This document shows, in pieces, positions 208 to 63,780 of a DNA stretch of 64,000 nt. The stretch is from Turnera subulata. Its lineage: Eukaryota > Streptophyta > Magnoliopsida > Malpighiales > Passifloraceae. The stretch is from assembly GCA_028386065.3 (NCBI GenBank), contig JAKUCV010005743.1, positions 19,615 to 83,614 on the forward strand, written 5' to 3'. The notes below the pieces were generated by a model. The model saw only the letters and a list, made by a program, of their open reading frames with translations. It was not told the origin of the DNA and ran no database searches. Within the stretch, counting starts at the first letter, position 1. Every line of letters begins with the position of its first letter. Position numbers and translations under genes: made by a program.

Positions 208-3200
208 ATGGCACAAAACACTAGCACAATGTCACTGCGATCTGTCCTTGAGAAGGAAAAGTTGAATGGGAATAACTTCCTAAAATAGTATCGCAACTTG
301 AGGATAGTCCTCAAACTAGAAAAGAAGTTGTATGTCCTCGAAGGGTTTGTTCCGAATGAACCGGCGCCTAGTGCTCCAAGGGCAGAAAGGGATGCTTACA
401 AGAAGCACCTTGATGATGCATTAGAAGCAGCATGCCTTATGCTTGTTAACATGGACTCTGAGCTTCAGAAACAACATGAGAACTTGGGTGTATTCGATAT
501 GATCGAACATCTGAAAATGCTTTTTGAAGAGCAAGCTAGGCATGAGAGGTATGAGACCTCTAAGGCATTGTTTCAATGCAAGATGGCTGAGTCATCACCG
601 GTGAGACCTCATGTGCTCAAAATGATTGGATACATTGAGAGCCTTGAGGGTCTAGGTTTTCCTTTGCAAAAGGAGTTGGCTGTTGATCTAGTCCTGCAAT
701 CGTTGCCAGATAGTTACAGCCAATTTGTCATGAATTTCAATATGAATCATCTTGACAAATCTTTGTCTGAGTTGCTTAACATGTTAGGAACAGTTGAGCA
801 ACAAATGAAGGCAAACAAATCCAACAACATTTTGATGGTTGGAAAAGGCAAAGGAAAGGGTGAAGCCAAGATTTACAAGAAGAAGAAATGTGCCAAAAAG
901 TTTGGTGCATGTGCTTCTTCTTGTTCCCATGTGCTGAAACCCAAAGGTGGTATTGCAAAGGAAGGACAATGTTTCCATTGCAACAAACCTGGCCATTGGA
1001 AACATAACTGCCCTGTTTACCATGAAGAGGTGAAGAAGCACAAGGGAAGTAAGACTTCCACTTCAGGTATCTTCGTTATAGAAGCTAATATCTCTATCTC
1101 TGCATCATGGGTATTAGATACCGGATGTGGTTCTCACATTTGTGTAAATGTGCAGGAACTGAGAAAGAGTAGGAGATTGAAAAAGGGTGAGATAGACCTG
1201 CGGGAGGGAAATGGAGCAAAAGTTGTTGCATTAGTCGTAGGAACTTACTATCTTACTTTACCGAGTGGTTTGGTTTTAGAACTGGACAATTGTTATTATG
1301 TACCGACCATAAGCAGGAATTTGATTTCTGTGTCTTGTCTTGACAAGAAAGGTTTTTTCATTTGTAATAAAGGACAATTGTTGTTCTATTTATTTCAATG
1401 ATGTTTATTATGGTGGTGCGTATTTAAGCAATGGTTTGTATGTTCTTAACCTAGAAACCGTAATCTATAACGTTAATACGAAGAAGGTTAGAATGAACGA
1501 TTCTAATGAAACCTATCTTTGGCATTGTCGATTGGGCCATATAAACGAGACTCGTATATCCAAACTCCATAAAGATGGACTTTTAGACTCATTTGATTTT
1601 GAATCATTTGAGATATGTGAGTCATGTTTGTTAGGCAAGATGACGAAGGCTCCTTTTACCGGTAAAGGTGAAAGAGCTTCGGACTTGTTAGGTCTTATAC
1701 ATAGTGATGTATGTGGACCGATGTCGACACAAGCTAGAGGTGGATTTCAATACTTCATTACATTTACTGACGATTTCAGTAGGTATGGCTATGTGTATCT
1801 AATGAGACACAAGTCAGAATCCTTTGAAAAGTTCAAAGAATTCAAGAATGAAGTACAGAATCAACTCGGCAAGAGTATTAAAATGCTTCGATCAGATTGA
1901 GGAGGTGAATACTTAGGCCGAGAATTTCTTGATCATCTAAAGGAGTGTGGTATAGTATCACAGCTCACTCCACCGGGTACACCTCAATGGAATGGTGTAT
2001 CCGAAAGGAGGAATAGAACCTTGTTAGACTTGGTTCGTTCGATGATGAGTCAAGCTGACCTTCCTTCATCATTTTGGGAACATGCATTATTGAGTGTTGC
2101 ATTTACTCTTAACCGTGTTCCATCCAAATCCGTCGAAAAGACACCATATGAGATATGGACTGGGAGGCGTCCCAATTTGTCTTTTATGAGAATTTGGGAT
2201 TGCGAGGCTTACGTGAGACGTGAAGCATCAGATAAACTTGGCCCTAAATCCGACAAGTGTCTCTTTGGATATCCTAAGGAAACTAAAGGGTATTATTTCT
2301 ACAATCCCACCTAGCACAAAGTGTTTGTTGCTCGGACTGCTATTTTTCTAGAAAGAGAATTTATTTTTAGAAGAATCAGTGGGAGGAAAATAGAACTCGA
2401 AGAAGTTCGAGATATTCAGGCTGAGATGGAACAAGGACAGGAACCACAAGATGTTGTGGATGAGAATCCTGTGCCTGTAACACATAGACCGCGTAGGTCG
2501 GATAGGATTCGGCATGAGCCTGAGAGATATGGATTTCTTATGACTCATACTGGAGACGTGATGCTCATAGAAGAGGATGAGCCCACTTCCTATCAGCAAG
2601 CTATTACGGGTCCGGACTCTAAGAAGTGGCTGGAAGCCATGAATTCGGAAATGGAATCCATGTATCAAAACAAGGTATGGATCTTGGTTGATCCACCTGA
2701 AGGGGTAAAACCCATAGGGTGCAAGTGGGTCTTTAAGAAAAAGACCGACATGGATGGTAATGTGATTACCTATAAAGGGCGATTGGTGGCAAAAGGTTTC
2801 AAGCAAGTTCATGGTATTGACTATGATGAAACTTTCTCACCAGTTGCCATGGTTAAATCCATTCGGATTCTAATGGCTATAGCGGCATACTATGATTATG
2901 AGATATGGCAAATGGATGTCAAAACTGCTTTCCTTAACGGAAATCTTTTAGAGGATGTGTACATGACACAACCTGAAGGTTTTGTCGATCCAGAGAATGC
3001 CAATATGGTATGCAAGTTGCAGAGATCCATTTATGGATTGAAGCAAGCTGTAGGAGTTGGAATCTTCGTTTTAATGAAGTGATCAAAGAGTTTGGTTTCA
3101 TTAAGAACGAAGATGAACCATGTGCTTACAAGAAGGTTAGTGGGAGCATTATTGTTTTCTTGTTGTTGTATGTTGACAACATCCTACTCATTGGGAATGA

Positions 3201-15300: not shown

Positions 15301-16144
15301 ATGGAATGGTCTGCTGTATAACTTGTGCTAATAGGAAGTTGGAAAAATTGCTTGACTGTTATGGATATTGTGATTGATGTCGGTAGATAGTGATGTGATT
15401 GGATAATTGGAATAAACTAGTGACTGAGGATAATTGGGAAATGGAAATTGGGAATTGGAATTGGAATTGATATGAGATGATGATGATATATGTGGGAAGT
15501 AGTGGTACGACCCGATGGTTTGAAAATTAATTCTGTGATGCTATGGTCGGATACTTGGTAAGGATACTTGATTTGATTGGCATGTTGATGCATGTGGTTG
15601 GGGTATACCAAATACCCAGTGGCTCGGATATGCCAAATATCCGCGGTGGCTCGGATATGCCGAATATCCGCAGTGGCTCAGATATGCCGAATATCTGGTT
15701 AGTATGATGTTGTCTGAGGTTGGGGTATACCGAATACCCAGTGGCTCGGATATGCCGAATATCCGCAGTGGCTCAGATATGCCGAATATCTGGTTGGTAT
15801 GATGTTGTCTGAGGTTGGGGTATACCGAATACCCAGTGGCTCGGATATGCCGAATATCCGCGGTGGCTCGGATATGCCGAATATCCGCGGTGGCTCGGAT
15901 NTACAGTGTTAGTGAGTTTAAGACTTCCGCTGTGCATATTGTTATTGTTGTTGGGCCATTGGGCCAGTTTCATTATTGTTGATGTTATCGATGTTGGGCC
16001 GTAGGGCCATACTGTTGTTTATTATTTTGGGCCGTTGGGCCGAGTTTGGGTTGTCCACACTGTATGCTTGGGCTTGTTGGGCTGGGTTGTCACAGTTCCG
16101 ACTTGTGTTTACTGTGTACGGTAAATACGGGTCGGGGCGTTTCA
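12349..16144 (+). mobile_element. Solo LTR (3796 bp) of a Ty3/gypsy element
   Basis: It begins TGTAACAGCCCGGGTAAAAT and ends GGGTCGGGGCGTTTCA, with perfect 5-bp target duplications TTCGT at 12344-12348 and 16145-16149 and no internal region. Both ends resemble the Gyp-C LTR, so it is probably a related family reduced by LTR-LTR recombination. Inside: a pyrimidine-rich tract (12655-13020), a GCC-rich block to about 13400, a CCGGAATCCGGCGAG module (13733), an AT-rich part, and a hairpin array (15601-15902). One unresolved base (N) is at 15901. Long open frames in the pyrimidine tract are not genes. Confidence 0.92.
15601..15902. repeat. Hairpin array in solo LTR, three arm types
   Basis: Ten 17-19 nt inverted repeats share the 5-nt loop (G/A)CC(G/A)A. 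Arms are GGGTAT/ATACCC (15601, 15723, 15818), CGGATAT/ATATCCG (15625, 15652, 15747, 15842, 15869) and CAGATAT/ATATCTG (15679, 15774). GTGGCTC-like linkers separate many of them. A partial unit is cut by the N at 15901. Confidence 0.88.
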
Positions 16145-19663: not shown

Positions 19664-19962
19664 TGTAACGCCCCGAATTTTCATAATTTGATTTTTCGGT
19701 GTTTTTGAATTTTTATTCCGATTTTACCCCTGAGGTATTTTCGAGTTTTAGTCGAGGAAATAAATTATCATGCCTTGGAAATGTCAATTCTGAGTTGGTA
19801 TTGTTCCTGGTTCGGGTCCCGTTGAAAACGGAATGTGTTTCGGGGTGAAACACGGGTCTTGATGAGGCCTCAATCGAAACTACGTCGTTTTGGTGCTATT
19901 TAAAAAAAAAAAAAAACCCCAACTGCACACGCGTTGACTGAAGTGGGTTGACCGCGCCTCAG

Positions 19963-19984
19963 CCCGAAACGACGTCGTTTCGGG
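19963..19984. promoter_or_regulatory. 22-bp palindrome around GACGTC in Gyp-A LTR
   Basis: GAAACGACGTCGTTTC is the core of a perfect 22-bp palindrome, flanked by CC and GG. The identical palindrome is at 27812-27833 in the 3' LTR. The ACGTC core resembles plant bZIP (TGA-type) sites; function is inferred. Confidence 0.6.
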
Positions 19985-21994
19985 GCTGAGCCGGCCAACC
20001 CTAAAAGCCTCTTCCCCCTTTTCTCTTCTTTCTCACTTTTCTTTTCTTTTCTTCCTTCTTCTTTCTTTCTCCCCGACGGTGCCCCTTCTTCCTTCTCCTC
20101 TCACTTTCTCCCTCACTCTCTCTCTCTCTTTTCCTTCTTCTCGGCCTCGTTTAGCCTTCCCTTTCCTCTGCCACGCCGCCACCACCGTTTCCCTCTGCCT
20201 TTTTTTTTTCCTCGAGCGGTCGCACGCCCAGGCGAGGGAGACACCACCGTCGCCTTCTGCTCCGAGTTCGTGGTGACGGGTTTCGCCTGGGATTCTTGAG
20301 GTCGAACTCGACCTTGCCGCCACTGTGACAAGAAGGTGAGCTTTCGTCCCTGTTCTCCTTCCTCTTTTTGTTTTCTTTCTCTTCGACCCGTGATGACCGT
20401 CGTGTTAATTGGTTTTCTGTTTTTGTTGTGGGTTGTGGTTGGCGACGGGTTGTGGTCGGGGTCGTTGTTGTTGGGTTCGGTGTGGTGGTCGGGTGTGTGC
20501 GGTGTTGACGGCGACTGTGGGTGTTGGCTGTTGCACGTGTTGGTGTCGTCGGTTGAAAGTTGCTGCGGGGTGTGTGGGTGTTATCGGGCTCGGATTCGAA
20601 CCTGATACTCGGCGAGGGTGTGTGGTTGCGGTTGTTTGTGTGGTTGTTGGCAGGGAAAAGTGGTGTTGACGAGTTGGGCACTCGTTCTTCAGGTAAGATC
20701 CAGCCCCAAAATTCTTCCTTTATGGTACGTTTGGTGTTTATATTTGATAGGATGGTAGATTGATTGTTGTTGTTGCCTTAGTTGGGCTTGCAGAATCTTT
20801 GGGGTGTTGTTGGGCGTTTTTCCGGCGAGGCTGTGATCGGATTCCGGCGAGTCGAGGATTTTCCGGCGAGGCTCGGGAATTTTTCGGCGAAGGTTCGGGT
20901 TTTGACTCCGGCATTATACTTGATGTATAATTTGTGTAATTCATGGCATGTACTCATTTAATTTGGATTGGGTTTTGTAATTTTGATAAGGTATATAGTA
21001 GTAAATCGAGTACGGGAATTTGTGTGGAATATAACCGGGAACTTACCGACACGGGTAGAACCTTAGGCCGGGAATCTTTGGACATCGAATTTACTTTGGA
21101 CTTAAGTAACGGGCTTTGAGCCCAATCCTATGCTTGGGTTAAAAAGGACTTAAGGAAGTGGGCTTTAGGCTCGGAAATTGTAATTGGGCTTAGATTGGAC
21201 TTTAGGCCGGGAATTCATAAACGACATAATGAGTGGGCCATAGGCTCGGGAACTACTCTAGGACTTAGTTGGGCTTAAGCCCGGTGAACCTTAGGTCCCG
21301 TTACTCGGAGTTTTGGTGAGAGAGCTTTAAGTCGGGTTTAGACCCGGGAATTTCATATTGGCTAACTAGGGACGGGTTTTAACTCAGTTGAGCATAATAG
21401 TTACATGCATGCACGTCTTTATTGTTTATCTTTGTAATTTGTTGTGTGTGCCGGTAATCAGGCACGGGTAATACCTCGGGAGCTGGAGGATCGATTTTGG
21501 GAAAAGCTCCACAGGACAATCGTCGTTGAGGTGACTTTATATGTCTTGTTATGTTTGTATGCATGAGCTCATTGGAATGGTTTGTTTGAGTTGCATGCTT
21601 GTTTGCTAACATGCTGTAATCTGTATTGTGTGCCTAAGTGTACTTTTTGCTTATGAGCTGGATGATTGGACTAGTTATGGATTATAACATGTGGTGTGAT
21701 TCTGGGTGTTTGGTGTGATGTGTTGTGGGTCGGAGACCCGGTTATTTGATTGAGCTGTTTTATCACACAACCCTGTTAAATCACAATTCCTTGGCACACA
21801 TGAACTCATAATTTATGAATAAGAATAATATACAGTAGAAGTTAGGCTACTGTGTGCTGATGACCGGTTGTTTCGAGCGGGAAGTGATACCCCTCGGGTT
21901 TGCTTGCGGATTAGCAAGTGTTATGAGGATTTGCATATGGGTCTGTGATGACCGGTTTCTACCTCCCTCCTTCTACCTCCCCCTTTCTACCTCC

Positions 21995-21995
<1 letters not shown>

Positions 21996-22028
<33 letters not shown>
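21996..22028 (+). repeat. (CT)n microsatellite in Gyp-A LTR
   Basis: Preceded by three TCTACCTCCC-type units (21958-21995). The copy in the 3' LTR (about 29846-29880) is longer by about two dinucleotides. Confidence 0.85.
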
Positions 22029-22030
<2 letters not shown>

Positions 22031-22765
22031 GGATATGTTGGGCTTCGTGCCTGGTTGTATTTGGGCTTATGCCTGGTTGTCTCATGAGACGGGACCGAGC
22101 TCGACGCACACAGTAGGGGCCCTGAATAATAAATCATAATAAGAAAACTTAACACACAACAGATGGAGAATAATGAATTGTTTGCTTGATTGGTTTGGCA
22201 TGTTAGTACTGGTTGCTGTTTGTTGCTTACTTGTCTTGTTACTCTTCTTTCCTTTCGGACTTGATCTGCACACTCTCATAATTAGACTTATATTGCTCAC
22301 TGAGTTGGCGACTCACATAATCGCCAACGTTGTTTTTCAGACCCATAGATAGCGTGCAGTCACTTTCTTCTTTTCCCGGAGTACGGACGTGGACATCCCA
22401 GCAGGTAACCGTGCTTGTTCTCCCGGTTGGATCCATAGTGTCAGCATGCATACTGTTTTGTTTCTCATATTTTTATTCCATTTATTTCTTCCGCTGCTTT
22501 GGATTTTTTATTGAGATGTCTATTGATTTGGATTACATTTTCGACGGGTTGCCGGGATTTACTATTGATGTTGTATCGGCAGGATGCCGGGTTTGATTTG
22601 AGGCTTGCTAAGCCAGATTGACTATGATTGTTATGACATCTCTTTTTATTGAGAATTGTGGATATTGTTGACATTGGTTTTCGTGTCCCGAGTTTCAGGG
22701 GTATTTTAGTAATTTCCTTTATTTAAGTATTTTATCTGCAAGATTGTGACACGGGTGTTTCAGCT

Positions 22766-22777
22766 TGGTAGCGGAGC
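22766..22777 (+). other. Gyp-A primer-binding site
   Basis: TGGTAGCGGAGC, three bases after the LTR end. Same 12-mer as in Gyp-C, Gyp-D, Cop2 and the copia fragment at 34355. Confidence 0.8.
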
Positions 22778-22906
22778 AGGCTTCAGATCCTTGGTTTTAA
22801 AATAGTTTTAAACTGTGTTTTCAAAGTGATTTCTGTGTTTAAGCCTGTTTCCGGATTTATGACTTAAAAGTGTTTTTGACTCATTTGCATTCATATAGGC
22901 GTCGAT

Positions 22907-24178
22907 ATGGGTCACGAGGGACAGCACAATGCTGAGGATAACGCCGCTACTCATGTCTCCGACAATGTGTCGGTGATGCAGGTTCCCGTTGGTCAGGGGA
23001 ACAATAACGCAGCAGAGAATAATGCTGCAGGGGGTGGAGGACAGAATGCTGTACCACCAGTTGTGAACCCAGCGTTCCAGCAGTATCAGGCTTTTCTGCA
23101 GTGGCAGCAGTTTCAGCAGCAGCAGCAGGGTGCCCAGCCGGTAGCACCTGCTGCAGCAGGTGGTATGGAGAGTGGATACAAACATATGGATAAGTCTGCT
23201 GTGAAGGAATTCACAGGTGAAGGGGGCAAAGTCAAGGAGTTTGATGATTGGTTTCGCCAGGTGGAGAATGTTCTGGAGAAGTTCACCTGTACACCTGAGC
23301 AGAGGGCTCGATTAGCTGCACACAAGTTCACAGGGTATGCATTGTCATGGTGGCAGGATCTTGTGGCCAATCTACCGAAGCCTGTGGAGATGCCTTGGGA
23401 GGATTTCAAGGAGAGATTCTACAAGGAGTATCTTACTGTTGGTTTTCTGGAGGAGCAGAAGAAGCAGTTTCTTGAGGCGAAGCAGGGACTAGATGAGACT
23501 GTATCAGCTTTCAAGATCCGGTATAGTATTCTTCTCTCTTATGCTAGGGAGTTTGTGCCCGATGAGTTGACCAAGTGTAGGCGGTTTGTTAACAGCTTAC
23601 GTACTGAGATAGCGATGGCTGTGGCTGGTGGAGGGCACAAGACTTGGGAGGCAGTTTGTGCCGCTGCTTTTGATGCTGAGAGAGTTCAGTTGCTCGGGAA
23701 GGAGGCTCGGGCAGCCGAGCAGAGGAAGCAGTCATCTGCTTCGGGACAAAAGAGGCAGTATTCTGATGCCGGAGGTGCAGATTATTCTGTTGGATAGAGT
23801 TCTTCTTACCAAGGTTCGAAGAAGTTCCGAGGGCAGAGTTATCAGGGTGGACCAGGCAGATCCTCGGGAGGACAGTCCTATCAGTCTGGTTCTCGGGGAC
23901 GGGGTTCCTCGGCACGGTTCTCGGGTACATACTGGTATTGCAATACGCCGGGACACGAGAAGTCTACTTGCTACAAGTGGATGAGGGATAATGGTGGCAG
24001 TGGTTCTCAGTATACAGTATAGAGTTCAGTGGCTAGTGGTGCTGTTTCTTTTGGTCCGAACAGGGGTGGCGGACAGCAGGGTTGAGGTCGTGGAGGTTCT
24101 GGAGCTCCGGACCGCGGAGGTGCGACTCAGTCTGCTGCAGCTCCTAGGGTTTATGCCATCACCTAAGAGGAGGCTGCT
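22907..24178 (+). pseudogene. Gyp-A gag, capsid open, nucleocapsid broken
   Basis: ATG at 22907 opens 296 codons to a TAG at 23795-23797. The N terminus is Gln- and Ala-rich (QWQQFQQQQQG). The retrotransposon gag core follows (KEFDDWFRQVENVLEKF, ALSWWQDLV, FKERFYKEYL). After the stop the same frame continues as a Ser/Gly-rich nucleocapsid with stops near 24020, 24083 and 24163. The zinc knuckle reads YWYCNTPGHEKSTC: the first Cys of CX2CX4HX4C is Tyr, so it should not bind zinc. Confidence 0.88.
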
Positions 24179-24208
24179 GATGCTCCAGATATTATAGCAG
24201 GTACCTTT

Positions 24209-27200
24209 ATGGTTTTTGGTCAGTTTGCACATGCTTTAATTGATCCAGGTTCTACACATTCTTTTGTATCACGTGCATTCATGACTGCTCATAACATAGA
24301 GGATGATAATCTTAGTAGACCCCTAAGAGTCCGTTTACCCACTGGAGATATAGTAGTTGTTGATCGAGTTTGTAGGAATGTGTTGATAGAGTATGATAGT
24401 GAGAGTTTTTCTTCTGATCTTGCTGTCATGGATTTGGGAGAGTTTGACGTTATCTTAGGCATGGACTGGTTGTCCAGACACCAAGCAGTAGTTGATTGTC
24501 GGGCCAGGGAAGTGTCTTTATCTTCTTTGCTGGGGCGTAGATTGGTGTTTGTTGGAGAACGAAGAGTTCTATCAGCGTGTTGTATCTCGGCCATCCAGGC
24601 TTTTAGGATGATCCGAGAGGGTTGTGATGCCTTTCTTGCTCATGTGGTCGATTCTTCGGTACCAATACCTGGAGTGGAGGATATTCCAATTGTTCGGGAG
24701 TTTCCCGATGTTTTTCCTGATGATTTACCTGGTTTGCCTCCGGAGCGGGAGGTGGAGTATACAGTTGACTTGGTACCGGGAGTTGCACCTATTTCTATAC
24801 CGCCCTACAGAATGGCTCCGGCAGAACTTCAGGAGTTGAAGAAGCAAACAAGGTGACTGTGAAGAACAAGTATCCTTTGCCTAGGATCGATGATTTGTTC
24901 GATCAGTTGCAGGGTGCATCTGTGTTCTCGAAGATTGACTTGCGATCTGGTTACCATCAGGTTCGGATTGCAGAGCAAGACATACCGAAGACTGCATTCC
25001 GCACTCGGTATGGTCATTATGAGTTTGTGGTTGTTCCTTTTGGTCTGACGAATGCACCGGCAGTGTTCATGTGTATGATGCAACAGGTCTTCCATGAATT
25101 TCTGGACCGGTTTGTGGTAGTGTTCATTGATGACATCTTGGTCTACTCGAGTAGTAAGGCCGAACATGAGGATCATTTGAGACAAGTTTTGCTGAGGTTG
25201 AGAGAAGAACAACTCTATGCCAAGCTCAGCAAGTGTGAGTTTTGGTTGGATGAGGTTGCGTTTCTAGGGCATATTGTGTCTGGTGAAGGCATTAAGGTGG
25301 ATCCGGCCAAGATTAAGGCAGTCATGGATTGGGAGCCACCGAAGAGTGTATCTGAGATACGGAGTTTTCTTGGACTTGCTGGCTACTACCGGAGGTTCAT
25401 TGAGGGTTTTTCCTTAATAGCGGGTCCCATGACTAAGTTGTTGAGGAAAGACTGTGCTTTTGTTTGGGTTGACGGTTGTCAGAAGAGTTTTGAGGAGTTG
25501 AAGAGTCGGTTGACTTCTGCACCGGTTTTGACTGTTCCGAGACCCGGAGTGGAGTACACGGTGTTCAGTGATGCTTCTGGTCTGGGCTTGGGATGTGTGG
25601 TGATGCAGGAGGGTCGGGTGATTGCTTATGCCTCCAGGCAGTTGAGAACTCACGAGCGGAACTATCCGACCCATGATCTGGAGTTAGCTGCTGTGATCTT
25701 TGCTTTGAAGATCTGGAGACACCATCTATACGGTGAGAAGTGTCGGATTTTTACGGATCACAAGAGTTTGAAGTACATCATGACCCAAAAGGAGCTTAAT
25801 ATGAGGCAGAGACGCTGGATTGAGCTTCTGAAGGATTATGATTATACCATTGAGTACCATCCGGGCAAGGCCAATGTTATTGCAGATGCATTGAGCCGGA
25901 AGAGAGTGGTTTCTGCGGATGAGGACTCGGTTTCTTATGCTTTGCCTTCTTTGGTGGAGCTGAGGTCGTTAGATGCACAGTTGGAGGTGGATGTTACTGG
26001 GGCGTTGTTAGCCAGTTTGAGCATTCGGCCGACCTTGAGAGATAAGATCATGGAGTTGCAGTATGGTGATCCTCATCTAGCAGAGTTGCGGGATAAGGCT
26101 CTCGGTGGAGAGAGTTCTAGTTTCTATGTCCGGGAGGATGGTGCTCTGATGACCGGTGATCGGTTGTGTGTTCCGGATGTGGATGATTTGAGGAGATGGA
26201 TTATGGATGAAGCGCATAATGCGCCATATGCTATGCATCCAGGTAGCACCAAAATGTATCAGAACTTGAAGAGTCATTATTGGTGGCCCGGGATGAAGAA
26301 GGATGTTGCGGAGTTTGTGGCTCGTTGTATGACTTGTCAGCAGGTGAAAGCCGAGCATCAGGCTCCTGCCGGCAAGTTGAGATCTTTGACCATTCCGCAG
26401 TGGAAGTGGGAGCATGTCACTATGGATTTTGTTATCGGGTTACCGAGGACCCGGGGTCGACATGATGCCATCTGGGTCATTGTTGACAGATTGACCATGT
26501 CAGCTCATTTCCTTCCGATTCAGCAGACGGATACAATGGATAAGCTGGCGAGGTTATATGTTTCGGGTGTTGTCCGTCTACATGGAGTTCCTCTATCTAT
26601 TGTGTCGGACAGGGATCCGAGGTTTACTTCCCACTTCTGGAAGAGTTTGCAGACAGCTTTGGGTACTAAGCTGAATTTCAGTACTGCTTTCCATCCGCAG
26701 ACTGATGGGCAGTCGGAGAGGACCATACAGACGCTGGAGGATATGCTTAGAGCCTGTGTGCTCAATTTTAGTGGTTCTTGGGATGAGACGTTACCGTTGG
26801 TTAAGTTTGCCTATAACAACGGGTATCACTCCAGTATCGGTATGGCGCCATATGAGGCATTGTATGGGCGGAAGTGTCGTAGTCCGATCTGTTGGGATGA
26901 GGAAGGTCTGAGAAAGGTGATTGGTCCGGACCTAGTCCAGGAGACTGTTGATCAGATCGAGGTGGTTAAGCAGTGCATGAGAGCTGCTCAGGACCGGCAA
27001 AAGAGTTTTGCCGATAAGCATCGTCGGGAGATGGAGTACAATGTAGGTGACAGAGTCTTCCTCCGTGTTGCTCCCTGGAGAGGTGTTATCCGATTTGGGA
27101 GGAAGGGCAAGTTGAGCCCTCGTTATATTGGTCCTTATGAGATCATGGAGCGGATTGGTCCGCTGGCCTACAGGTTGGCTTTACCGGAGGAGCTGTCGCG

Positions 27201-27459
27201 CATACATGAAGTATTCCATGTTTCGATGCTGAGGCGTTATCGGTCTGATCCTAGTCATGTTGTATCCCTGACAGAGGTGGAGGTTTCTGAGGACTTGACT
27301 TATGTTGAGGAGCCGGTTGAGATTCTTGCTCGGGAGGAGCGACAGTTGAGGAACCGAGTTATTCCGATGGTTCGGGTTAGGTGGAGCCGTCATTCTCCGA
27401 ATGAGGCTACTTGGGAGGTTGAGTCCCATATGCGGGAACAGTATCCTCATTTTTTTTGA
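24209..27459 (+). pseudogene. Gyp-A protease-RT-RNase H-integrase-chromodomain, RT N-terminus deleted
   Basis: Frame 1 (24209-24856) is the protease: ALIDPGSTHSF active site, ILGMDWLSRH flap end, then FPDVFPDDLPGLPP before RT. It stops after QELKKQ. Frame 2 (24853-27459, 868 codons) starts at [16 protein letters not shown], so about 45 residues normally found between these blocks (the first RT finger) are gone and the frame is shifted. RT keeps [10 protein letters not shown] and [11 protein letters not shown]. RNase H has [12 protein letters not shown]. Integrase has an HHCC finger ([20 protein letters not shown]), then the D,D35E core ([23 protein letters not shown]) with all three acidic residues. 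The C-terminal part ([20 protein letters not shown]) looks like a chromodomain. RT is probably inactive; integrase looks intact. Confidence 0.92.
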
Positions 27460-27511
27460 TGTTTCATATCCTGTAATTTCGAGGACGAAATTTCCTTAAG
27501 TGGGGTAGAAC

Positions 27512-29843
27512 TGTAACACCCCGAATTTTCATAATTTGATTTTTCGGTGTTTTCGAATTTTTATTCCGATTTTACCCCTGAGGTATTTTCGAGTTTTAGT
27601 CGAGGAAATAAATTATCATGCCTTGGAAATGTCAATTCTGAGTTGGTATTGTTCCTGGTTCGGGTCCCGTTGAAAACGGAATGTGTTTCGGGGTGAAACA
27701 CGGGTCTTGATGAGGCCTCAATCGAAACTACGTCGTTTTGGTGTTATTTAAAAAGAAAAAAAAAACCCCAACTGCACGCGCGTTGACTGAAGTGGGTTGA
27801 CCCCGCCTCAGCCCGAAACGACGTCGTTTCGGGGCTGGGCCGGCCAACCCTAAAAGCCTCTTCCCCCTTTTCTCTTCTTTCTCACTTTTCTTTTCTTTTC
27901 TTCCTTCTTCTTTCTTTCTCCCAGACGGCGCCCCTTCTTCCTTCTCCTCTCACTTTCTCCCTCACTCTCTCTCTCTCTTTTCCTTCTTCTCGGCCTCGTT
28001 TAGCCTTCCCTTTCCTCTGCCACACCGCCACCACCGTTTCCCTCTGCCTTTTTTTTTCCTCGAGCGGTCGCACGCCCAGGCGAGGGAGACACCACCGTCG
28101 CTTTCTGCTCCGAGTTCGTGGTGGCGGGTTTCGCCTGGGATTCTTGAGGTCGAACTCGACCTTGCCGCCGCCGTGACAAGAAGGTGAGCTTCCGTCCCTG
28201 TTCTCCTTCCTCTTTTTGTTTTCTTTCTCTTCGACCCGTGTTGACCGTCGTGTTAATTGGTTTTCTTTTTTTGTTGTGGGTTGTGGTTGGCGACGGGTTG
28301 TGGTCGGGGTCGTTGTTGTTGGGTTCGGTGTGGTGGTCGGGTGTGTGTGGTGTTGACGGCGGCTGTGGGTGTTGGCTGTTGCACGTGTTGGTGTCGTCGG
28401 TTGAATAGTTGCTGCGGGGTGTATGGGTGTTATCGGGCTCGGATTCGAACCTGGTACTCGGCGAGGGTGTGTGGTTGCGGTTGTTTGTGTGATTGTTGGC
28501 AGGGAAAAGTGGTGTTGACGAGTTGGACACTCGTTCTTCAGGTAAGATCCAGCCCCAAAATTCTTCCTTTATGGTACGTTTGGTGTTTATATTTGATAGG
28601 ATGGTAGATTGATTGTTGTTGTTGCCTTAGTTGGGCTTGCAGAATCTTTGGGGTGTTGTTGGGCGTTTTTCCGGCGAGGCTGTGATCGGATTCCGGCGAG
28701 TCGAGGATTTTTCGGCGAGGCTCGGGAATTTTTCAGCGAAGGTTCGGGTTTTGACTCCGGCATTATACTTGTTGTGTAATTTGTGTAATTCATGGCATGT
28801 ACTCATTTAATTTGGATTGGGTTTTGTAATTTTGATAAGGTATATAGTAGTAAATCGAGTACTGGAATTTGTGTGGAATATAACCGGGAACTTACCGACA
28901 CAGGTAGAACCTTAGGCCGAGAATCTTTGGACATCGAATTTACTTTGGACTTAAGTAACGGGCTTTGAGCCCAATCCTATGCTTGGGTTAAAAAGGACTT
29001 AAGGAAGTGGGCTTTAGGCCCGGAAATTGTAATTGGGCTTAGATTGGACTTAAGGCCGGGAGTTCATAAACGACATAATGAGTGGGCCATAGGCTCGGGA
29101 ACTACTCTAGGACTTAGTTGGGCTTAAGCCCGGTGAACCTTAGGTCCCGTTACTCGGAGTTTTGGTGAGAGAGCTTTAAGTCGGGTTTAGACCCGGGAAT
29201 TTCATATTGGCTAACTAGGGACGGGTTTTAACTCAGTTGAGCATAATAGTTACGTGCATGCACGTCTTTATTGTTTATGTTTGTAATTTGTTGTGTGTGC
29301 CGGTAATCAGGCACGGGTAATACCTCGGGAGCTGGAGGATCGGTTTTGGGAAAAGCTCCACAGGACAATCGTCGTTGAGGTGACTTTATATGTCTTGTTA
29401 TGTTTGTATGCATGAGCTCGTTGGAATGGTTTGTTTGAGTTGCATGCTTGTTTGCTAACATGCTGTAATCTGTATTGTGTGCCTAAGTGTACTTTTTGCT
29501 TATGAGCTGGATGATTGGACTAGTTATGGATTATAACATGTGGTGTGATTCTAAGTGTTTGGTGTGATGTGTTGTGGGTCGGAGACCCGGTTATTTGATT
29601 GAGCTGTTTTATCACACAACCCTATTAAATCACAATTCCTTGGCACACATGAACTCATAATTTGTGAATAAGAATAATGTACAGTAGAAGTTAGGCTACT
29701 GTGTGCTAATGACCGGTTGTTTCGAGCGGGAAGTGATACCCCTCGGGTTTGCTTGCGGATTAGCAAGTGTTATGCGGATTTGCATATGGGTCTGTGATGA
29801 CCGGTTTCTACCTCCCTCCTTCTACTTCCCCCTTTCTACCTCC

Positions 29844-29883
<40 letters not shown>

Positions 29884-30614
29884 GGATATGTTGGGTTCGT
29901 GCCTGGTTGTATTTGGGCTTATGCCTGGTTGTCTCATGAGACGGGACCGAGCTCGACGCACACAGTAGGGGCCCTGAATAATAAATCATAATAAGAAAAC
30001 TTAACACACAACAGATGGAGAATAATGAATTGTTTGCTTGATTGGTTTGGCATGTTAGTACTGGTTGCTGTTTGTTGCTTACTTGTCTTGTTACTCTTCT
30101 TTCCTTTCGGACTTGATCTGCACACTCTCATAATTAGACTTATATTGCTCACTGAGTAGGCGACTCACATAATCGCCAACGTTGTTTTTCAGACCCATAG
30201 ATAGCGTGCAGTCACTTTCTTCTTTTCCCGGAGTACGGACGTGGACATCCCAGCAGGTAGCCGTGCTTGTTCTCCCAGTTGGATCCATAGTATCGGCATG
30301 CATACTGTTTTGTTTCTCATATTTTTATTCCATTTATTTCTTCCGCTGCTTTGGATTTTTTATTGAGATGTCTATTGATTTGGATTACATTTTCGGCGGG
30401 TTGCCGGGATTTACTATTGATGTTGTATCGGCAGGATGCCGGGTTTGATTTGAGGCTTGCTAAGCCAGATTGACTATGATTGTTATGACATCTCTTTTTA
30501 TTGAGAATTGTGGATATTGTTGACATTGGTTTTCGTGTCCCGGGTTTCAGGGGTATTTTAGTAATTTCCTTTATTTAAGTATTTTATCTGCAAGATTGGG
30601 ACACGGGTGTTTCA
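27512..30614 (+). repeat. Gyp-A 3' LTR (3103 bp)
   Basis: Begins TGTAACACCCCGAATTTTC after the purine-rich tract; ends at 30614. Same internal landmarks as the 5' LTR. Confidence 0.93.
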
Positions 30615-54785: not shown

Positions 54786-55378
54786 ATGAAAAAAATTGTC
54801 GTTTTTTTTTGGAATAATAACAGGCGTGACGAGGATGAAGCCCTTGGCTTCGTCTTCTTCAACAATCCACACAGGAGCCGCCTTCACCAAACACATCGTG
54901 AACCGCCGTCGCACCGCGCGTGGACACAAGCACCGCCACAACCACACGACTCATGCCGCCGCCGTCGCTGCGTGAGGGGTCGGATCGAGAGCGGGAGCCG
55001 CGAGTCATAAAACCCATCGCTCCGACCATCGGCGCTGTCTCCTAGCCTCCCACAGCACTGTCGTCGTGCTGCTTCGGGATTCGAATCTCAACCCACACAG
55101 ATAGGGGTCGCAGCAGTCGATGCCGACAGTGAAGAAGAGGAGCACTTCGTGAAGATGGCTCTCTGCCTCCTCTTCATCCTCGTCGGTGTCCTCATTGCCA
55201 CCACCTTCTTCATCCTCCAGCCTTGCCTCTCCCGCCTCTCCTCTTCCCCCTACTCCTCAAACCTCCTCTCCACCGCTCCGACAACAACAACCCCCACCAC
55301 CGCCTCCACTCCTCCTCGCTCCTCCCCAAGCACCTCGTTCATTCGTCGGCCGTGTCCCCGCCGGTCTCGGGCGGAAGC
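54786..55378 (+). CDS. Possible host exon, cut by the Cop2 insertion
   Basis: Not recognised. GC-rich sequence unlike the flanking spacer. From ATG 55155 the frame reads a hydrophobic stretch (LCLLFILVGVLIATTFFIL), which could be a signal peptide or membrane helix, followed by a Ser/Thr/Pro-rich tail. It is open upstream to acidic DADSEEEEHFVK. At 55378 Cop2 interrupts it. Removing Cop2 and one target copy continues the frame at 63786 for about 17 codons before a stop. No homology can be claimed; it may be only a CT-rich 5' leader. Confidence 0.3.
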
Positions 55379-56857
55379 TGTAAGTAACCGGGCATGCAAA
55401 CTTGACAATCAAGTGCAGCGGAAAGACCCGAAAACCTTGGAGGATCCAAGTGAAGCAACCTCACCGAACAAAATCGATCATACCTGAAACGGTTAGGATC
55501 TTTCACCTGACTGAAGAACCGAATCAGCTAGAGCCGGAAGGATATCCTGCTCCTCTACGGTATCCACACGAACCGTCAATCACCGGCCAGAATCGTCTCA
55601 CAATCTCCAACCCCGGAGCACTCCCAAACCGTGGTGCTAGCTACGGATTTCCGGGAGCTATATGTGGTGTTTATGGTATCTCTTTCTTTCACAAAGAAGA
55701 GAGGAAGATGTGTGTGTGTTTCTTGCTCTGAAAAACCCAGAATTCAGAATGCAAGAGAGAGTGAGAAGTGTCAAGAGTAATCAGATTACTCTCCCTCAAT
55801 TAGTGCTAAGAGACAATGGAATAATGGCCAACATAATGGCCCATTATCTTTTATGATTATGTCTCCACATAACCATGTCTCCACTAATGTACAAACACTC
55901 ATCACAGCACTAACTTGGTCCAATCATTCTGTCAATTACTGAATCAAACCAACCCAAAACGACCACGGACCAAGCACAAACCGGTCCAACCATGGTTCAA
56001 CCACCTGCTTGAATCAACGGTTCTATGTGTGTGACCCTGTAGGCACTTGTAACGTCCGGAAATAATTGTAAAATCTCATTTTACAATTACAAGCAAAGTG
56101 CGGCGTCTAGCAACACATCATTGCTACCCGAACGACAAGATCAGTACTGATTCTATATGTCTCGGAACATGTCATCCTCCTTTCGTCCCATTATCAAGAT
56201 TAAACCGAGACATGGAAAACGTCAATCTCGTATATGTTTAATCATAGTTTCTTGATCCCCGAGTTAACTGTGTAAAACGGATCCTAATGATATCACCATA
56301 TCATATAATCTGAGCATGGCCATGCATTTACAGTTCAACTCTATCAAGAGGCCCATCTGATAATATACCCGTTATATGGGTCGGACGAATCCCATCTTGA
56401 TCAATCAAAACCCACTACACATTTATCATATACCCAATGATTACCCTTAAGTCCACCCAGTTACGGATGACTAGGAATAATATCAAAGTATATGACTCAC
56501 ATGTTGGGAACCTTGATGATCTCAGGTCTAAGGATAATATATATAAGAACCACTAATGACAATCATATAACGTTCCATGTAGGGTTCTTATGTAGGTCGG
56601 TCCAGTCCACAAGTTCTCTAACTTGTACCCGTATGTAGAATTAATATCTCATATAATTCTCAACACACGCTAGTCTTAATTTATTATTACAACCCATCCA
56701 TAATAATAATCGACTAGAGACATTTAAGAATACAAAATATTCTAGGGTTATAAATATGTGCAAGCGATTATCTCATACTCATATTTATTGGAACAACCTT
56801 AATGTATATACATGACTACAATCATCCATTGATTGGCTTTTGGGCATATTACTAACA
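55379..56857 (-). repeat. Cop2 3' LTR (1479 bp)
   Basis: TGTTAGTAATATGCCC at 56857 to TTACTTACA at 55379 on the minus strand. Confidence 0.93.
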
Positions 56858-56871
56858 TTCTCCCACTTGCA

Positions 56872-59800
56872 CTAAAGCCAATCAACCATGTATCTAATAC
56901 CAATGGATGCGCAATGACCATCATGCTTCTGCTGCGTGAGTGGCTTCGTCAAGGGATCTGCTACATTGTTCTTAGAGGGAACTCTGCACAGCCTGACATC
57001 GCCTCTATCTATGATCTCTCTAATAAGATGATAGCGTCGGAGTATATGTTTGGATCTCTGGTGGTATCTAGGCTCTTGAGCCTGTGCGATTGTCCCATTA
57101 TTGTCACAATAGAGCTCAGTCGGACTCTCAATACTAGGAACCACCCCAAGTTCAGTTACGAACTTCTTAATCCAAACAGCCTCTTTCGCCGCATCTGAGG
57201 CAGCAATGTACTCAGCCTCGGTTGTAGAGTCTGCAACTGTCTCTTGCTTAGAACTCTTCCAGCATACAGCACCACCTCCAAGACAAAACACATAACCTGA
57301 TTGCGATCTGAAGTCATCCCTGTCTGTTTGGAAGCTAGCATCTGTGTAACCCTTTACAACAAGCTCATCAACGCTTCCATACACAAGGAATGCATCCTTA
57401 GTCCTTCTCAAGTACTTAAGGATGTTCTTAACCGCTGTCCAGTGACTCTCACCGGGATCAGATTGATATCTGCTTGTGACACTCAAAGCATAAGCGACAT
57501 CCGGTCGAGTACATAGCATGGCATACATGATAGATCCTATTACCGAAGCATAAGGGATCTTACTCATCCGCTCTCTCTCCTTCGATGTACTAGGACATTG
57601 ATTCTTAGAGAGAAATACGCCATGTGACATAGGCAAGAATCCTTTCTTGGAATCTTGCATGTTAAACCTCTTTAGCACCTTGTCAATATATGTACTCTGA
57701 CTTAGCCCGAGAAACCTTTTGGATCTATCTCTATAGATCTTTATACCTAACACATAGGCAGCTTCACCTAAGTCCTTCATCGAGAAATTCTTCCCTAACC
57801 AAGTCTTTACAGACTGTAGTGTCGGAATATCATTCCCAATGAGTAGAATGTCGTCAACATACAATAACAAGAAAATAATAGTGCTCCCACTAACCTTCTT
57901 GTAAACACATGGTTCATCTTCATTCTTAATGAAACCAAACTCTTTGATTACTTCATTAAAACGAAGATTCCAACTCCTAGAAGCTTGCTTCAACCCGTAG
58001 ATGGATCTTTGCAACTTGCATACCATATTAGCATTCTCTGGATCGACAAAACCTTCAGGTTGTGTCATGTACACATCCTCTAAAAAGATTTCCATTTAGG
58101 AAAGCGGTTTTGACATCCATCTGCCATATCTCATAATCATGGTATGCCGCTATTGCCAACAGAATCCGGATGGATTTAACCATGGCAACTGGTGAGAAAG
58201 TTTCATCATTGTCTATACCATGAACTTGTTTGAAACCTTTCGCAACCAATCGCCCTTTATAGGTAATCACATTACCATCCATGTCGGTTTTTTTCTTAAA
58301 GACCCATTTGCACCCTATGGGTTTTACCCCTTCAGGTGGATCAACCAAGGTCCATACCTTGTTTTCATACATGGATTCCATTTTCGAATTCATGGCTTCT
58401 AGCCACTTCTTGGAGTCCGGACCCGTAATGGCCTGCTGATAGGAAGTGGGCTCATCCTCATCTATGAGCATCACATCTCCAGTATGAGTCATAAGAAATC
58501 CATATCTCTCAGGCTCATTGTAACGCCCCGAATCAATCAAATTATGAAAATTCGGGGCGTTACACTCATATCGAATCCTATCCGACCTACGCGGTCCATG
58601 TGTTATAGGTACAGGATTCTCATCCATAACATCTTGTGGTTCCTGTCCTTGTTCCATCTCAGCCTCTAGATCTCGAACTTCTTCGAGTTCTATTTTTCTC
58701 CCACTGATTCCTCTAGAAATAAATTCTCTTTCTAGAAAAATAGCAATCCTAGCAATAAACACTTTGTGGTCGGTGGGATTATAGAAGTAATACCCTTTTG
58801 TTTCCTTAGGGTATCCTACAAAGAGGCACTTCTCGGATTGAGGGCCGAGTTTATATGATGCTTCACGTCTCACGTAAGCCTCACAACCCCAAATCCTTAT
58901 AAAAGACAAATTGGGACGCTTCCCGGTCCATATCTCATATGGTGTCTTTTCAACCGATTTCGATGGAACACGGTTAAGTGTAAAAGCAGCACTCAATAAT
59001 GCATGTCCCCAAAATGAAAAAGGAAGGTCTGCTTGACTCATCATAGAACAAACCATTTCTAACAAAGCTCTATTCCTCCTTTCAGATACACCATTCCATT
59101 GAGGCGTACCTGGTGGAGTAAGCTGTGATACTATACCACATTGCTTTAGATGATCAAGAAATTCTCGGCTTAAGTATTCACCTCCTCGATCAGATCGAAG
59201 CATTTTAATACTTTTACCGAGTTGATTCTGTACTTCATTCTTGAATTCTTTGAACTTTTTAAAGGATTCTGACTTGTGTCTCATTAGATACACATAGCCA
59301 TATCTACTGTAATCATCAGTAAATGTAATGAAGTATTGAAAACCACCTCTAGCCTGTGTAGACATAGGTCTGCATACATCAGAATGTATAAGACCTAATA
59401 AGTCCGAAGCTCTTTCTCCTTTACCAACAAAGGGAGCTTTCGTCATTTTGCCTAATAAGCATGACTCACATGTCTCAAATGAGTCTAAAAGTCCATATTT
59501 ATGGAGTTTAACAATACGAGTCTCGTTTATATGGCCCAAACGACAATGCCAAAGGTAGGTTTCATTAGAATCGTTCATTCTAACCTTCTTCATATTAACG
59601 TTATAGATTGGCGTTTCTAGGTTTAGAACATACAAACCATTGCTCAAATATGCACCACCATAATAAATATCATTGAAATGAATAGAACAACATTTGTTCT
59701 TTATTACAAATGAAAAGCCTTTCTTGTCCAGACAAGAAACAGAAATTAAATTTCTGCTTATGGTAGGAACATAATAACAATCGTCCAGTTCTAAAACCAA

Positions 59801-60859
59801 ACCACTCGGTAAAGATAGATAGTAAGTCCCTACGGCTAATACAGCAACTCTTGCTCCATTTCCAATGCGTAGGTCTTTCTCACCCTTCGCCAATCTCCTA
59901 CTCTTTCTTAGTTCCTGCACATTCACACAAATGTGAGAACCACATCCGGTATCTAATACCCATGATGCAGAGATAGAGATATTAGCTTCTATAATGAAAA
60001 TACCTGAAGTGGAAGTCTCACTTCCCTTCTTCTTCTTTACCTCTTCAAGGTAAACAGGGCAGTTGCACTTCCAATGGCCCGGTTTGTTGCAATGGAAACA
60101 ATGTCCTTCCTTTGCAATACCACCCTTGGGTTTCAGCACGTGGTCACAAGAAGATGCACATGCACCAAACTTTTTGGCACATTTCTTCTTCTTGTTGAAC
60201 TTTGCTTTACCCTTTCCTTTGCCTTTTCCAATCATCAAAATGTTGGATTTGTATGTCCTCATTTGTTGCTCAGTTGTTCCCAACATGTTAAGCAACTCAG
60301 ACAATGATTTGTCAAGATGATTCATATTGAAGTTCATGACAAATTGGTTGTAACTGTCCAGCAACGATTGCAGGACTAGATCAACTGCCAACTCCTTGTG
60401 CAAAGGAAAACCAAGACCCTCAAGGCTCTCAATGTAACCAATCATTTTGAGCACATGAGGTCTCACGGGTGATGACTCTGCCATCCTGCATTGGAACAAT
60501 GCCTTAGAGGTCTCATACCTCTCATGCCTTGCTTGCTCATCAAAGAGCATCTTAAGGTGTTCGATCATATCCAACGCCCCCATGTTCTCATGTTGCTTCT
60601 GAAGCCCAGATTCCATGGCTATTAGCATAAGACATGCGACATCCAATGCATCATCAAGATGCTTCTTGTAACATTCCCTTTCTTCCCTAGGAGCATTAGG
60701 CGTCGGTTCAATCGGAACAGGCCCTTCAAGGACATACATCTTCTTTTCTTGTTTGAGGACAATCCTCAAATTGCGATACCACTTTAGGAAATTATTCCCA
60801 TTCAGCTTTTCCTTCTCAAGGACCGATCACAATGATAGTGTACCTGTGTTTTGTGCCAT
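56872..60859 (-). pseudogene. Cop2 gag-pol polyprotein, nearly open
   Basis: ATG at 60859. Codon 11 is TGA (60829-60827) where Cop1 has CGA. An inner Met at 60769 opens 904 codons: gag core, knuckle CFHCNKPGHWKCNC, protease LDTGCGSH, integrase zinc region (HCRLGHINETRI, CESCLLGK), core (HSDVCRPM, LRSDRGGEY, GTPQWNGVSERRNR), and RT to FLNGNL. An extra T near 58090 (five T against four in Cop1) shifts the frame. The second frame (58095-56872) continues with YGLKQASRSWNLRFNEV, LLLYVDDILLIGND and RNase H to the stop. RT keeps YVDD. 17 extra codons (CNAPNFHNLIDSGRYNE) come from the insertion at 58519. Confidence 0.94.
58519..58564. mobile_element. 46-bp inverted LTR-end insertion with 5-bp TSD
   Basis: It begins TGTAACGCCCCGAAT and ends ATTCGGGGCGTTACA, a 15-bp terminal inverted repeat. 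The minus-strand arm matches the first 30 bases of the Gyp-A 5' LTR exactly; the other arm matches the first 15 in inverted orientation. CTCAT flanks it at 58514-58518 and 58565-58569; Cop1 has this site once, uninterrupted. Insert plus TSD is 51 bp, so the frame is kept. Confidence 0.93.
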
Positions 60860-61228
60860 GGTAGCTCTACAACAAAGATCAACTCACACAAATAAGAGTC
60901 ATGTATACATAAATCATTTAACAAGGAATTCTATTAAATGATGCTTCTACTATGAAAACAGAATAATCATGAGTAGGCCAAGATCCATATTTCACTACAA
61001 TATAAGTCAGCTTTGGTTGATCGCCTACATCATAGCTATTTAGGTAGACAACTCTTGTCAATTACATCTCATGTAACTCTTGGATAGTTGAGCGAACAAC
61101 ACTTGTTTTTGTCTATCTCATAGACATTACTCAACTCCTTGCCTCTAAGTCCTTAATCCTATTAAGATGACCTAGTTAAGTCCAAACCCACAATAAGCAG
61201 TTCATATATTACAATTATCCAGTCGCAC

Positions 61229-61480
61229 CTTGCTAGGATAAACATAGGCACCTTGCTTTGGCAAAACCTACCTAATGTTGATCTAAGCAATGATGAGTGC
61301 TTATCATGGAAGGCAACTAAGAACTTAATATTTATATCAACAATTGTTTCCATGCATAACAATTATGCCATCACATCTTGGTAGGATAAACATTGGCACC
61401 TTGCTTTGGCAAAACCTACCAAATGTTGATCTAAGCAATGATGAATACTTGTCAACAATTGTATCCATACATGTCATGCA
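61229..61480 (-). repeat. Direct duplication of a leader block
   Basis: CTTG(C/G)TAGGATAAACAT at 61229 and 61377 (offset 148) starts two copies of about 75 bp containing GGCACCTTGCTTTGGCAAAA and GTTGATCTAAGCAATGATGA. A CAACAATTGT block follows both, but the second copy lacks about 33 bp. Confidence 0.85.
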
Positions 61481-61576
61481 TGTAATTCATAAATTATATA
61501 TCTCATATACAATAACAATACATGCAATATAAGCCGCTACGCAGAGGTAGCACGGCAGTCCCGCTAGCCTATCCTG

Positions 61577-61974
61577 AACATCGATATCATTTGGCCTCTA
61601 GAACACAAGAACATCGATGTCCAGACCTCAACATCGATGTTCAATACTTGAACATCGATGTTTGATTCTTGAACATCGATGTTGGAAGGTTCTGAAAGTC
61701 CAAGAATTAGGCAGTAGTTTTAAACATCGATGTCTAACCCTTAAACATCGATGTAGGACTCATGAACATCGATGTTCAAACTTGAACATCGATGTTGGAG
61801 ACCTCTGCCAATTCAAGTTTCATGGCAGTACTTTTAAACATCGATGTATAGGCCCTAAACATCGATGTTTCTGTCCTGAAGATCGATGTTCCCTACTGAA
61901 CATCGATGTTTCAGACTTCTGCCAAGGCCAAAACTCAAGTGAACATCGATGTTCAACCATTGAACATCGATGTT
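61577..61974. repeat. AACATCGATGTT palindrome array, 21-bp phased
   Basis: Fifteen copies start at 61577, 61610, 61630, 61651, 61672, 61723, 61744, 61765, 61785, 61837, 61858, 61879, 61899, 61942 and 61963. Within groups spacing is 20-21 bp; groups of four are separated by about 52 bp, giving a ~114-bp higher-order unit whose linkers are also related (CTCTGCCAATTC, TTCTGCCAAGGC, GGCAGTA.TTTT). Most copies are perfect 10-12-bp palindromes. Confidence 0.93.
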
Positions 61975-62264
61975 CTGGCCTCGAAGCACTAGAACGACCA
62001 TCGTTCCTTACAAAAACCAACAATCGATTTTCCTTTTGTCAAACCCCTTCGACTTACTGCCAAGAACCTCTTGATTGATATCACATACCAATCAAGTGCT
62101 TGTTGTCAGAACCCTTTTGACACAACCAACCTCAACATATATCGCATATACATAAATGAATTCAGCATATCACATATACCAAAATGAATTCATCATATCA
62201 CACACATTAAGATGAACATATCACACATATGCACAACTAAATTCGGTTTAGAGCTTCACAAGAG

Positions 62265-62276
62265 GCTCCGCTACCA
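62265..62276 (-). other. Cop2 primer-binding site
   Basis: TGGTAGCGGAGC on the minus strand, one base from the 5' LTR end at 62278. Confidence 0.82.
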
Positions 62277-62277
62277 C

Positions 62278-63780
62278 TGTAAGTAATCGGGCATGCAAAC
62301 TTGACAATCAAGTGCAGCGGAAAGACCCGGAAACCTTGGAGGATCCAAGCGAAGCAACCTAACTGAACAACAAAATCGATCATACCTGAAACGGTTAGGA
62401 TCTTTCACCTAACTGAAGAACCGAATTAGCTAGAGCCGGAAGGATATCCTGCTCCTCTACGGTATCCACACGAACCGTCAATCACCGGCCGAAATCGTCT
62501 CACGATCTCCAACCCCCCGAGCACTCCCGAACCGTGGTGCTAGCTACGGATTTCCGGGAGCTATATGTGGTGTTTATGGTATCTCTTTCTTTCACAAAGA
62601 AGAGAGGAAGATGTGTGTGTGTTTCTTGCTCTGAAAAACCCAGAATTCAGAATGCAAGAGAGAGTGAGAAGTGTCAAGAGTAATCAGATTACTCTCCCTC
62701 AATTAGTGCTAAGAGACAATGGAATAATGGCCAACATAATGGCCCATTATCTTTTATGATTATGTCTCCACATAACCATGTCTCCACTAATGTACAGACA
62801 CTCATCACAGCACTAACTTGGTTCAGTTGGTCCAATAATTCTGTCAATTATTGAACCAAACCAGCCCAAAACGACCACGGTCCAACCACAAACCGGTTCA
62901 ACCATGATTCAACCATGGTTCAACCACCTGCTCGAATCAACGGTTCTATGTGTATGACCCTGTAGGCACTTGTAACGTCCGGCAATAATTATAAAATCTC
63001 ATTTTACAATTATAAGCAAAGAGCGGCGTCTAGCAACACATCATTGCTACCCGAACGACAAGATCAGTACTGATTCTATATGCCTCGGAACATGTCATCC
63101 TCCTTTCGTCCCATTATCAAGATTAAACCGAGACATGGAAAACGTCAATCTCGTATATGTTTAATCTTAGTTTCTTGATCCCCGAGTTAACTCTATAAAA
63201 TGGATCCTAATGATATCACCATATCGTATAATCCGAGCATGGCCATGCATTTACAGTTCAACTCTATCAAGAGGCCCATCTGATAATATACCCGTTATAT
63301 GGGTCGGAAGAATCCCTTCTTGATCAACCAAAACCCACTACACATTTATCATATACCCAATGATTACCCTTAAGTCCACCTAGTTACGGATGACTAGGAA
63401 TAATATCAAAGTATATGACTCACATGTTGGGAACCTTGATGATCTCAGGTCTAAGGACAATACATATAAGAACCACTAATGACAATCATATAACGTTCCA
63501 TGTAGGGTTCTTATGTGGGTCGGTCCAGTCCACAAGTTCTCTAACTTGTACCCGTATGTAGAATTAATATCTCATATAATTCTCAACACACGCTAGTCTT
63601 AATTTATTATTACAACCCATCCATAATAATAATCGACTAGGGACATTTAAGAATACAAAATATTTTAGGGTTATAAATATGTGCACGCGATTATCTCATA
63701 ATCATATTTATTAGAATAACCTTAATGTATATACATGACTACAATCATCCATTGATTGGCTTTTGGGCATATTACTAACA
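62278..63780 (-). repeat. Cop2 5' LTR (1503 bp)
   Basis: Same termini as the 3' LTR; followed on the plus strand by target duplication GAAGC. Confidence 0.93.

Follow-up and report, generated by a model that had tools for sequence, protein, structure and literature searches.

The stretch of DNA analysed here (the window, 64,000 nucleotides) contains a copia element, Cop2, at 55378..63780 on the minus strand, whose LTRs at about 55378-56857 and 62277-63780 are 95.3% identical, as well as Cop1, which belongs to the same copia family and lies in inverted orientation, and a gypsy element. The 904-aa gag-pol frame of Cop2 (58055..60769, minus strand) stays open through an insert of 46 bp at 58519..58564, which has the layout TGTAACGCCCCGAAT-16 nt-ATTCGGGGCGTTACA. 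Its two 15-nt arms are complementary at 15/15 positions, giving exact inverted ends with 16 nt in between, and the exact terminal TG...CA that marks an LTR insertion is present. CTCAT lies directly at both ends (58514..58518 on the left and 58565..58569 on the right, both read from the sequence), a target site duplication (TSD) of 5 bp; elements of the donor group, L094 and L103 among others, also have 5-bp repeats. Shuffling gave an expectation of 0.00 for an exact facing pair of this kind within the window. When TG..CA inverted ends of 9 bp were sought within 400 bp of one another in 357 kb of fetched, partly overlapping DNA, 96 pairs were found, and a 5-bp TSD accompanied one of them, the window pair. 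The preliminary description of this locus had claimed a 46-bp insert with a 15-bp terminal inverted repeat and a CTCAT duplication, and we confirmed that an insert with two U3 ends and a 5-bp TSD is real.

The insertion site in the copia element

Insert and TSD together amount to 51 bp, or 17 codons that contain no stop in the 904-aa frame, just as was first described. When worked out by hand, the insert falls at about aa 735-750 of this frame, after the SH3-like match (aa 615-683) and ahead of the RVT_2 match, which starts at aa 803. The remaining pol of Cop2 is in a different frame (56872-58095), so that pol is already broken elsewhere.

Cop1, previously proposed as the empty site, indeed has one CTCAT at the matching place (2514..2518, minus strand). 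When 151 bp spanning the site were used as the query against the complete genome (518.7 Mb, 7125 contigs), 79 matches were obtained. One covers the window copy from end to end; the others fall at 39 further places, each matched in two pieces (query positions 1-49, in one case 2-49, and 96-151), which overlap by exactly 5 bp in 39/39 copies; each of these is an empty site with a single CTCAT. The 39 copies are a sample of the family, as the scored copies, window copy included, were 40 of 2479 first-look candidates. At L040 (C112:4300), the start of a different gypsy LTR is 2 bp away from this copia site (ctcaggctcat-ac-TGTAACG), and this part of copia pol is perhaps a preferred target.

Both ends of the insert are U3 ends

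The window gypsy element (19664-30614) has 3.1-kb LTRs that are 98% identical and near-matching flanks, AAGTC and AAATC. Its 5' LTR (19664..22762, plus strand) is a relative of the donor with an identical first 30 nt, and its 3' LTR lies at 27512..30614 (plus strand). Both LTRs begin with TGTAACGCCCCGAATTTTCATAATTTGATT, with one base different at 27512, and finish with CACGGGTGTTTCA. The label Tekay-type, given to the LTR in the preliminary description, is putative. A chromodomain at the integrase C-terminus is the mark of Tekay chromoviruses; in the 868-aa gypsy frame (24853-27459) Pfam matches were obtained for RT, RNase H, integrase and Tf2-1 SH3, and no chromodomain was matched at E<=0.001. 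Elsewhere in the window, at 15612-15950, there is a short tandem family whose 95-base register includes ATCCGCGGTGGCTCGGATATGCCGAAT.

Compared with the gypsy LTR starts, the reverse complement of the insert matches 30/30 nt at 19664 and 29/30 nt at 27512. The short arm, described earlier as the first 15 nt of the LTR in reverse, matches U3 at 15/15 positions (58519-58533). For the long arm, the 30 bases first reported hold against the window LTR at 19664, but the arm reaches 37 nt against the best donor, L019. In all 23 distinct U5 ends that the anchor GGGACACGG picked out, whether in the window or in fetched loci, TTTCA rather than TTACA precedes the boundary. The right end of the insert matches U3 at 15/15 bases and U5 at its 2 terminal bases, which together with the 23 TTTCA ends identifies both insert ends as U3. 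An LTR insertion or solo LTR has one U3 and one U5 end, whereas the insert carries two U3 ends within 46 bp. The U5 end of the donor-type element L090 reads CACGGGTGTTTCA.

The donor subfamily and the joint

The sequence TGTAACGCCCCGAAT occurs 1004 times in forward and 952 times in reverse orientation in the genome. For a sample of LTR starts, 100 of these places were listed and 80 of 94 were fetched, which with L001-L008 gave 86 distinct starts; L009 and repeats of a key were skipped, and two starts from the C23 palindrome were included. Exclusion of the two C23 starts, one start with Ns, L005, L009, L090 onwards and the insert itself, and addition of the window LTR, gave 84 usable starts. 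The first 30 nt of the insert are common to 16 of the 84. The best donor found, L019, matches the insert over 37/37 nt and is the only one of the 84 in which ATTCGG starts at nt 16-61; L022 matches over 36/37 nt. L019 belongs to a subfamily other than that of the window gypsy copy, the Gyp-A with whose LTR terminus the preliminary description had compared the insert. A 23-mer of the L019 subfamily has 17 exact places genome-wide (insert counted), plus 2 with one mismatch.

The long arm (58528..58564, minus strand) is an exact copy of nt 1-37 of an L019-type LTR, and the 15-nt LTR-start copy facing it (58519..58533, plus strand) forms the short arm. As 37 and 15 nt are accommodated in 46 bp, the arms overlap by 6 nt at 58528..58533 (CCGAAT on the plus strand, ATTCGG on the minus strand), and the partner of this overlap within the long arm lies at 58550-58555. 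In L019, the ATTCGG that occupies nt 32-37 is complementary to the CCGAAT of nt 10-15, and the insert reads as nt 1-37 of an L019-type LTR followed by the nine bases expected from copying back to the U3 end. The 6-nt overlap makes the joint look like the result of fold-back or microhomology. A snap-back prediction, that the donor LTR would read TTTGATTGATTCGG, had been made before the donor was known, and L019 then matched the insert at 37/37 nt. The pentamer TTCGG, complementary to CCGAA at nt 10-14 of the LTR start, is present in the nt 16-61 range in 48 of the 84 LTR starts against 1.1 expected from single-base shuffles, although the starts are related and do not represent 48 independent cases.

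Other U3-U3 pairs in the genome

The 518.7-Mb genome was searched for exact 15-mer arms facing each other with gaps of 0-61. With a gap of 0-30, one place was found genome-wide, the window insert; with a gap of 31-61 there were five, of 63-86 bp, and reversed control patterns gave no matches in either gap range. The five are C23:10459-10531 (L009 4460-4532; 73 bp), C2481 (77 bp), C3077 (63 bp), C3420:107983-108068 (L112; 86 bp) and C6692:25401-25479 (L115; 79 bp). No two of the six have the same sequence. With six U3-U3 pairs known that have exact 15-mer arms and a gap of at most 61, this kind of structure is not a one-off. The perfect arms measure 15 bp in the window, 18 bp in C23 (36 bp with one mismatch), 35 bp in C2481, 19 bp in C3077, 37 bp in C3420 and 36 bp in C6692. 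In 6/6 pairs the mirror symmetry ends no more than 1 bp from the U3 terminus, as judged by comparing the flanks by eye. A junction at an inverted repeat of the donor, the mark of a fold-back product, was found in three pairs, with overlaps of 6 nt (window and L019), 5 nt (C2481 and L064) and 4 nt (C3077 and L026), which are raw counts in AT-rich LTR starts. For the others the best sampled donors match only 34 nt (C23), 25 nt (C3420) and 33 nt (C6692), and no joint was called there; visual comparison places the turn of C3420 and C6692 at a TTTTTCG/CGAAAAA repeat, as in C2481.

No separate 5-bp duplication was found at the other five pairs, so that integrase action is supported for the window pair alone (1/6). 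A genome-wide check for facing pairs with 5-bp TSDs had been proposed in the preliminary description; it yielded the six exact-arm pairs (gap <=61), but a TSD at only one of them. The fold-back shape recurs, and a clean integrase-type insertion is supported in the window case alone.

The flanks of the five are varied. When the flanks of C2481 are joined, one of three frames is open for 16 codons across the junction and encodes what we take to be a LINE-like sequence; this weakly suggests that the target is uninterrupted. The right flank starts with TGTAA, the first five U3 bases, and a duplication is therefore indistinguishable from microhomology at this place. The C23 palindrome sits exactly between a piece of copia LTR (corresponding to window position 63487, or 56564 in the other LTR) and copia RT (57881); about 5.6 kb is missing if this LTR piece came from the 5' LTR of the element that supplied the RT. 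One arm of C3420 continues into a polypurine tract, and C3420 may be a whole element that ends in U3 at both ends. In C3077 a third U3 start follows 7 bases after the pair. C6692 is flanked on the left by copia LTR and on the right by sense gypsy LTR, 80% identical over 183 bases from about nt 1531 of L100, and looks like a template switch during reverse transcription, with a fold-back followed by a forward jump.

Discussion

Most likely, in our view, the insert is a fold-back fragment with two U3 ends that came from a gypsy LTR retrotransposon and, in the window case, was inserted by integrase; we consider this route somewhat better than an even proposition. Plus-strand DNA of LTR elements starts after the polypurine tract, at the U3 terminus. 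Here, such a strand would have started at the polypurine tract with the 5' end TGTAAC and stopped early, at about nt 37; its end could then have folded back on its own inverted repeat, ATTCGG on CCGAAT, and been extended to its own 5' end. The product would have been turned double-stranded, or paired with a second such strand, and integrase would have joined both U3-type ends to copia DNA 5 bp apart. The joint would look identical if two molecules had annealed at this repeat. This route is favoured by the agreement of L019 with the advance prediction, by the five further pairs that differ in sequence and the 5- and 4-nt donor overlaps in two of them, by the stop of the symmetry at the U3 terminus in 6/6 cases, which is expected of a template ending there, by the passage of the C6692 fold-back directly into sense LTR, and by the empty sites in 39/39 copies. 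Fold-back on the chromosome after integration was considered and rejected, since copying into the flank would give an inverted and not a direct flanking repeat. Against a fold-back origin, a hairpin has one end, and the step to a two-ended substrate is the weak one. A 46-bp duplex is also probably too stiff for both of its ends to enter one intasome. Integrase complexes protect about 20 bp at each DNA end (PMC11054761). The arms of C3420 and C3077 are not simple free ends, given the run-on into the polypurine tract and the third U3 start, and the join of copia LTR to RT at C23 goes beyond simple insertion.

A serious rival, less likely in our view but quite possible, is that the U3 ends of two cDNA molecules were joined to copia 5 bp apart in concerted integration and that their tails were sealed by end joining at the 6-nt microhomology. 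Short LTR-end DNAs are routinely used to assay concerted integration in vitro, with linearised target plasmid as the product (PMC11054761). With two donors, neither a stiff 46-bp molecule nor a one-ended hairpin would be needed, and the TSD, the 6-nt overlap and the difference in arm length (37 against 15) would all be accounted for; the copia LTR and RT pieces at C23 would fit two separate attacks. Both tails would, however, have to be cut to about 15-50 nt from the U3 end in six cases, among gaps searched only up to 61 bp, and the fold-back at C6692 followed by sense LTR from about nt 1531 is easier to obtain during cDNA synthesis. Of the original claim that integrase joined a tiny DNA with two U3 ends, the two ends, the TSD and the empty site stand; a ready-made two-ended DNA becomes one of two workable routes.

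The remaining explanations account less well for the ends of the insert. It is improbable that a U3 fold-back piece was captured as filler DNA at a double-strand break in copia, with the CTCAT repeat arising by chance or by fill-in of a staggered break. Short inverted fold-back insertions at breaks are documented in yeast (PMC11724301) and 5/6 pairs lack a separate TSD, but the insert begins and ends precisely at LTR termini and is flanked by a repeat of exactly 5 bp, as at L094 and L103; a 5-bp match has a chance probability of about 1 in 1000. A solo LTR with a large internal deletion, whose right end would be a true U5 end, is disfavoured and very unlikely. Such an origin would explain the TG..CA ends and the TSD, and the U5 end CACGGGYGTTTCA is similar to U3 read as its reverse complement, CGGGGCGTTACA, but the TTTCA at 23/23 U5 ends, the donor-type end of L090 and the 15/15 fit of the right end to U3 oppose it, and it was rejected on the U5 ends and the two U3 ends. 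Least credible of all is that the insert belongs to a MITE or DNA transposon family (e.g., Ginger-like) with its own transposase, the alternative named in advance as fatal to an integrase origin. Terminal inverted repeats and a 5-bp TSD would fit, but the insert is made of LTR sequence, and the five other pairs have neither its sequence and length nor a separate TSD; an amplified family was rejected on the single occurrence of the exact arms (gap 0-30) in the 518.7-Mb genome.

If the fold-back reading is right, the insert preserves a natural case in which integrase worked on two U3 ends in vivo, short palindromic insertions are tied to LTR retrotransposons, and some orphan mini-insertions labelled as MITEs could be by-products of integrase. 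As a wider and more speculative proposal, the recurrent CCGAA...TTCGG inverted repeat at U3 might make the gypsy plus strand shed self-primed U3-U3 fragments with authentic integrase ends. Occasional integration of these would give what are perhaps the smallest insertions derived from retrotransposons, and a route from LTR elements to MITE-like sequences and rearranged LTRs. With the six U3-U3 pairs as a guide, the idea can be tested directly in other plant genomes.

Among literature titles and abstract beginnings no natural U3-U3 mini-insertion was found, which is weak evidence given thin coverage of subscription journals; the available parts of PMC3952818 and PMC6911290 have no bearing on a U3-U3 joint. 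Fold-back copying and the use of like ends by integrase are each known, and a natural product of both, with a TSD, looks new. As in concerted integration in vitro (PMC11054761), a single target received two LTR ends at a fixed stagger, but the insert is a sealed chromosomal product with two U3 ends head to head. The yeast insertions resemble it in that a short inverted microhomology primes copying back (PMC11724301); here, the mirror symmetry goes no further than the LTR terminus, and a direct 5-bp repeat borders the insert. With Ty3/gypsy solo LTRs the insert shares TG..CA ends and a 5-bp TSD, but it is U3-U3 rather than U3-U5 and measures 46 bp rather than about 3.1 kb. It is as short as a MITE, with terminal inverted repeats and a TSD, but consists of LTR sequence, and no amplified copies were found. 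TRIM elements are likewise tiny and LTR-derived and are presumably moved by the proteins of another element; their direct LTRs with priming sites, however, are too large for 46 bp.
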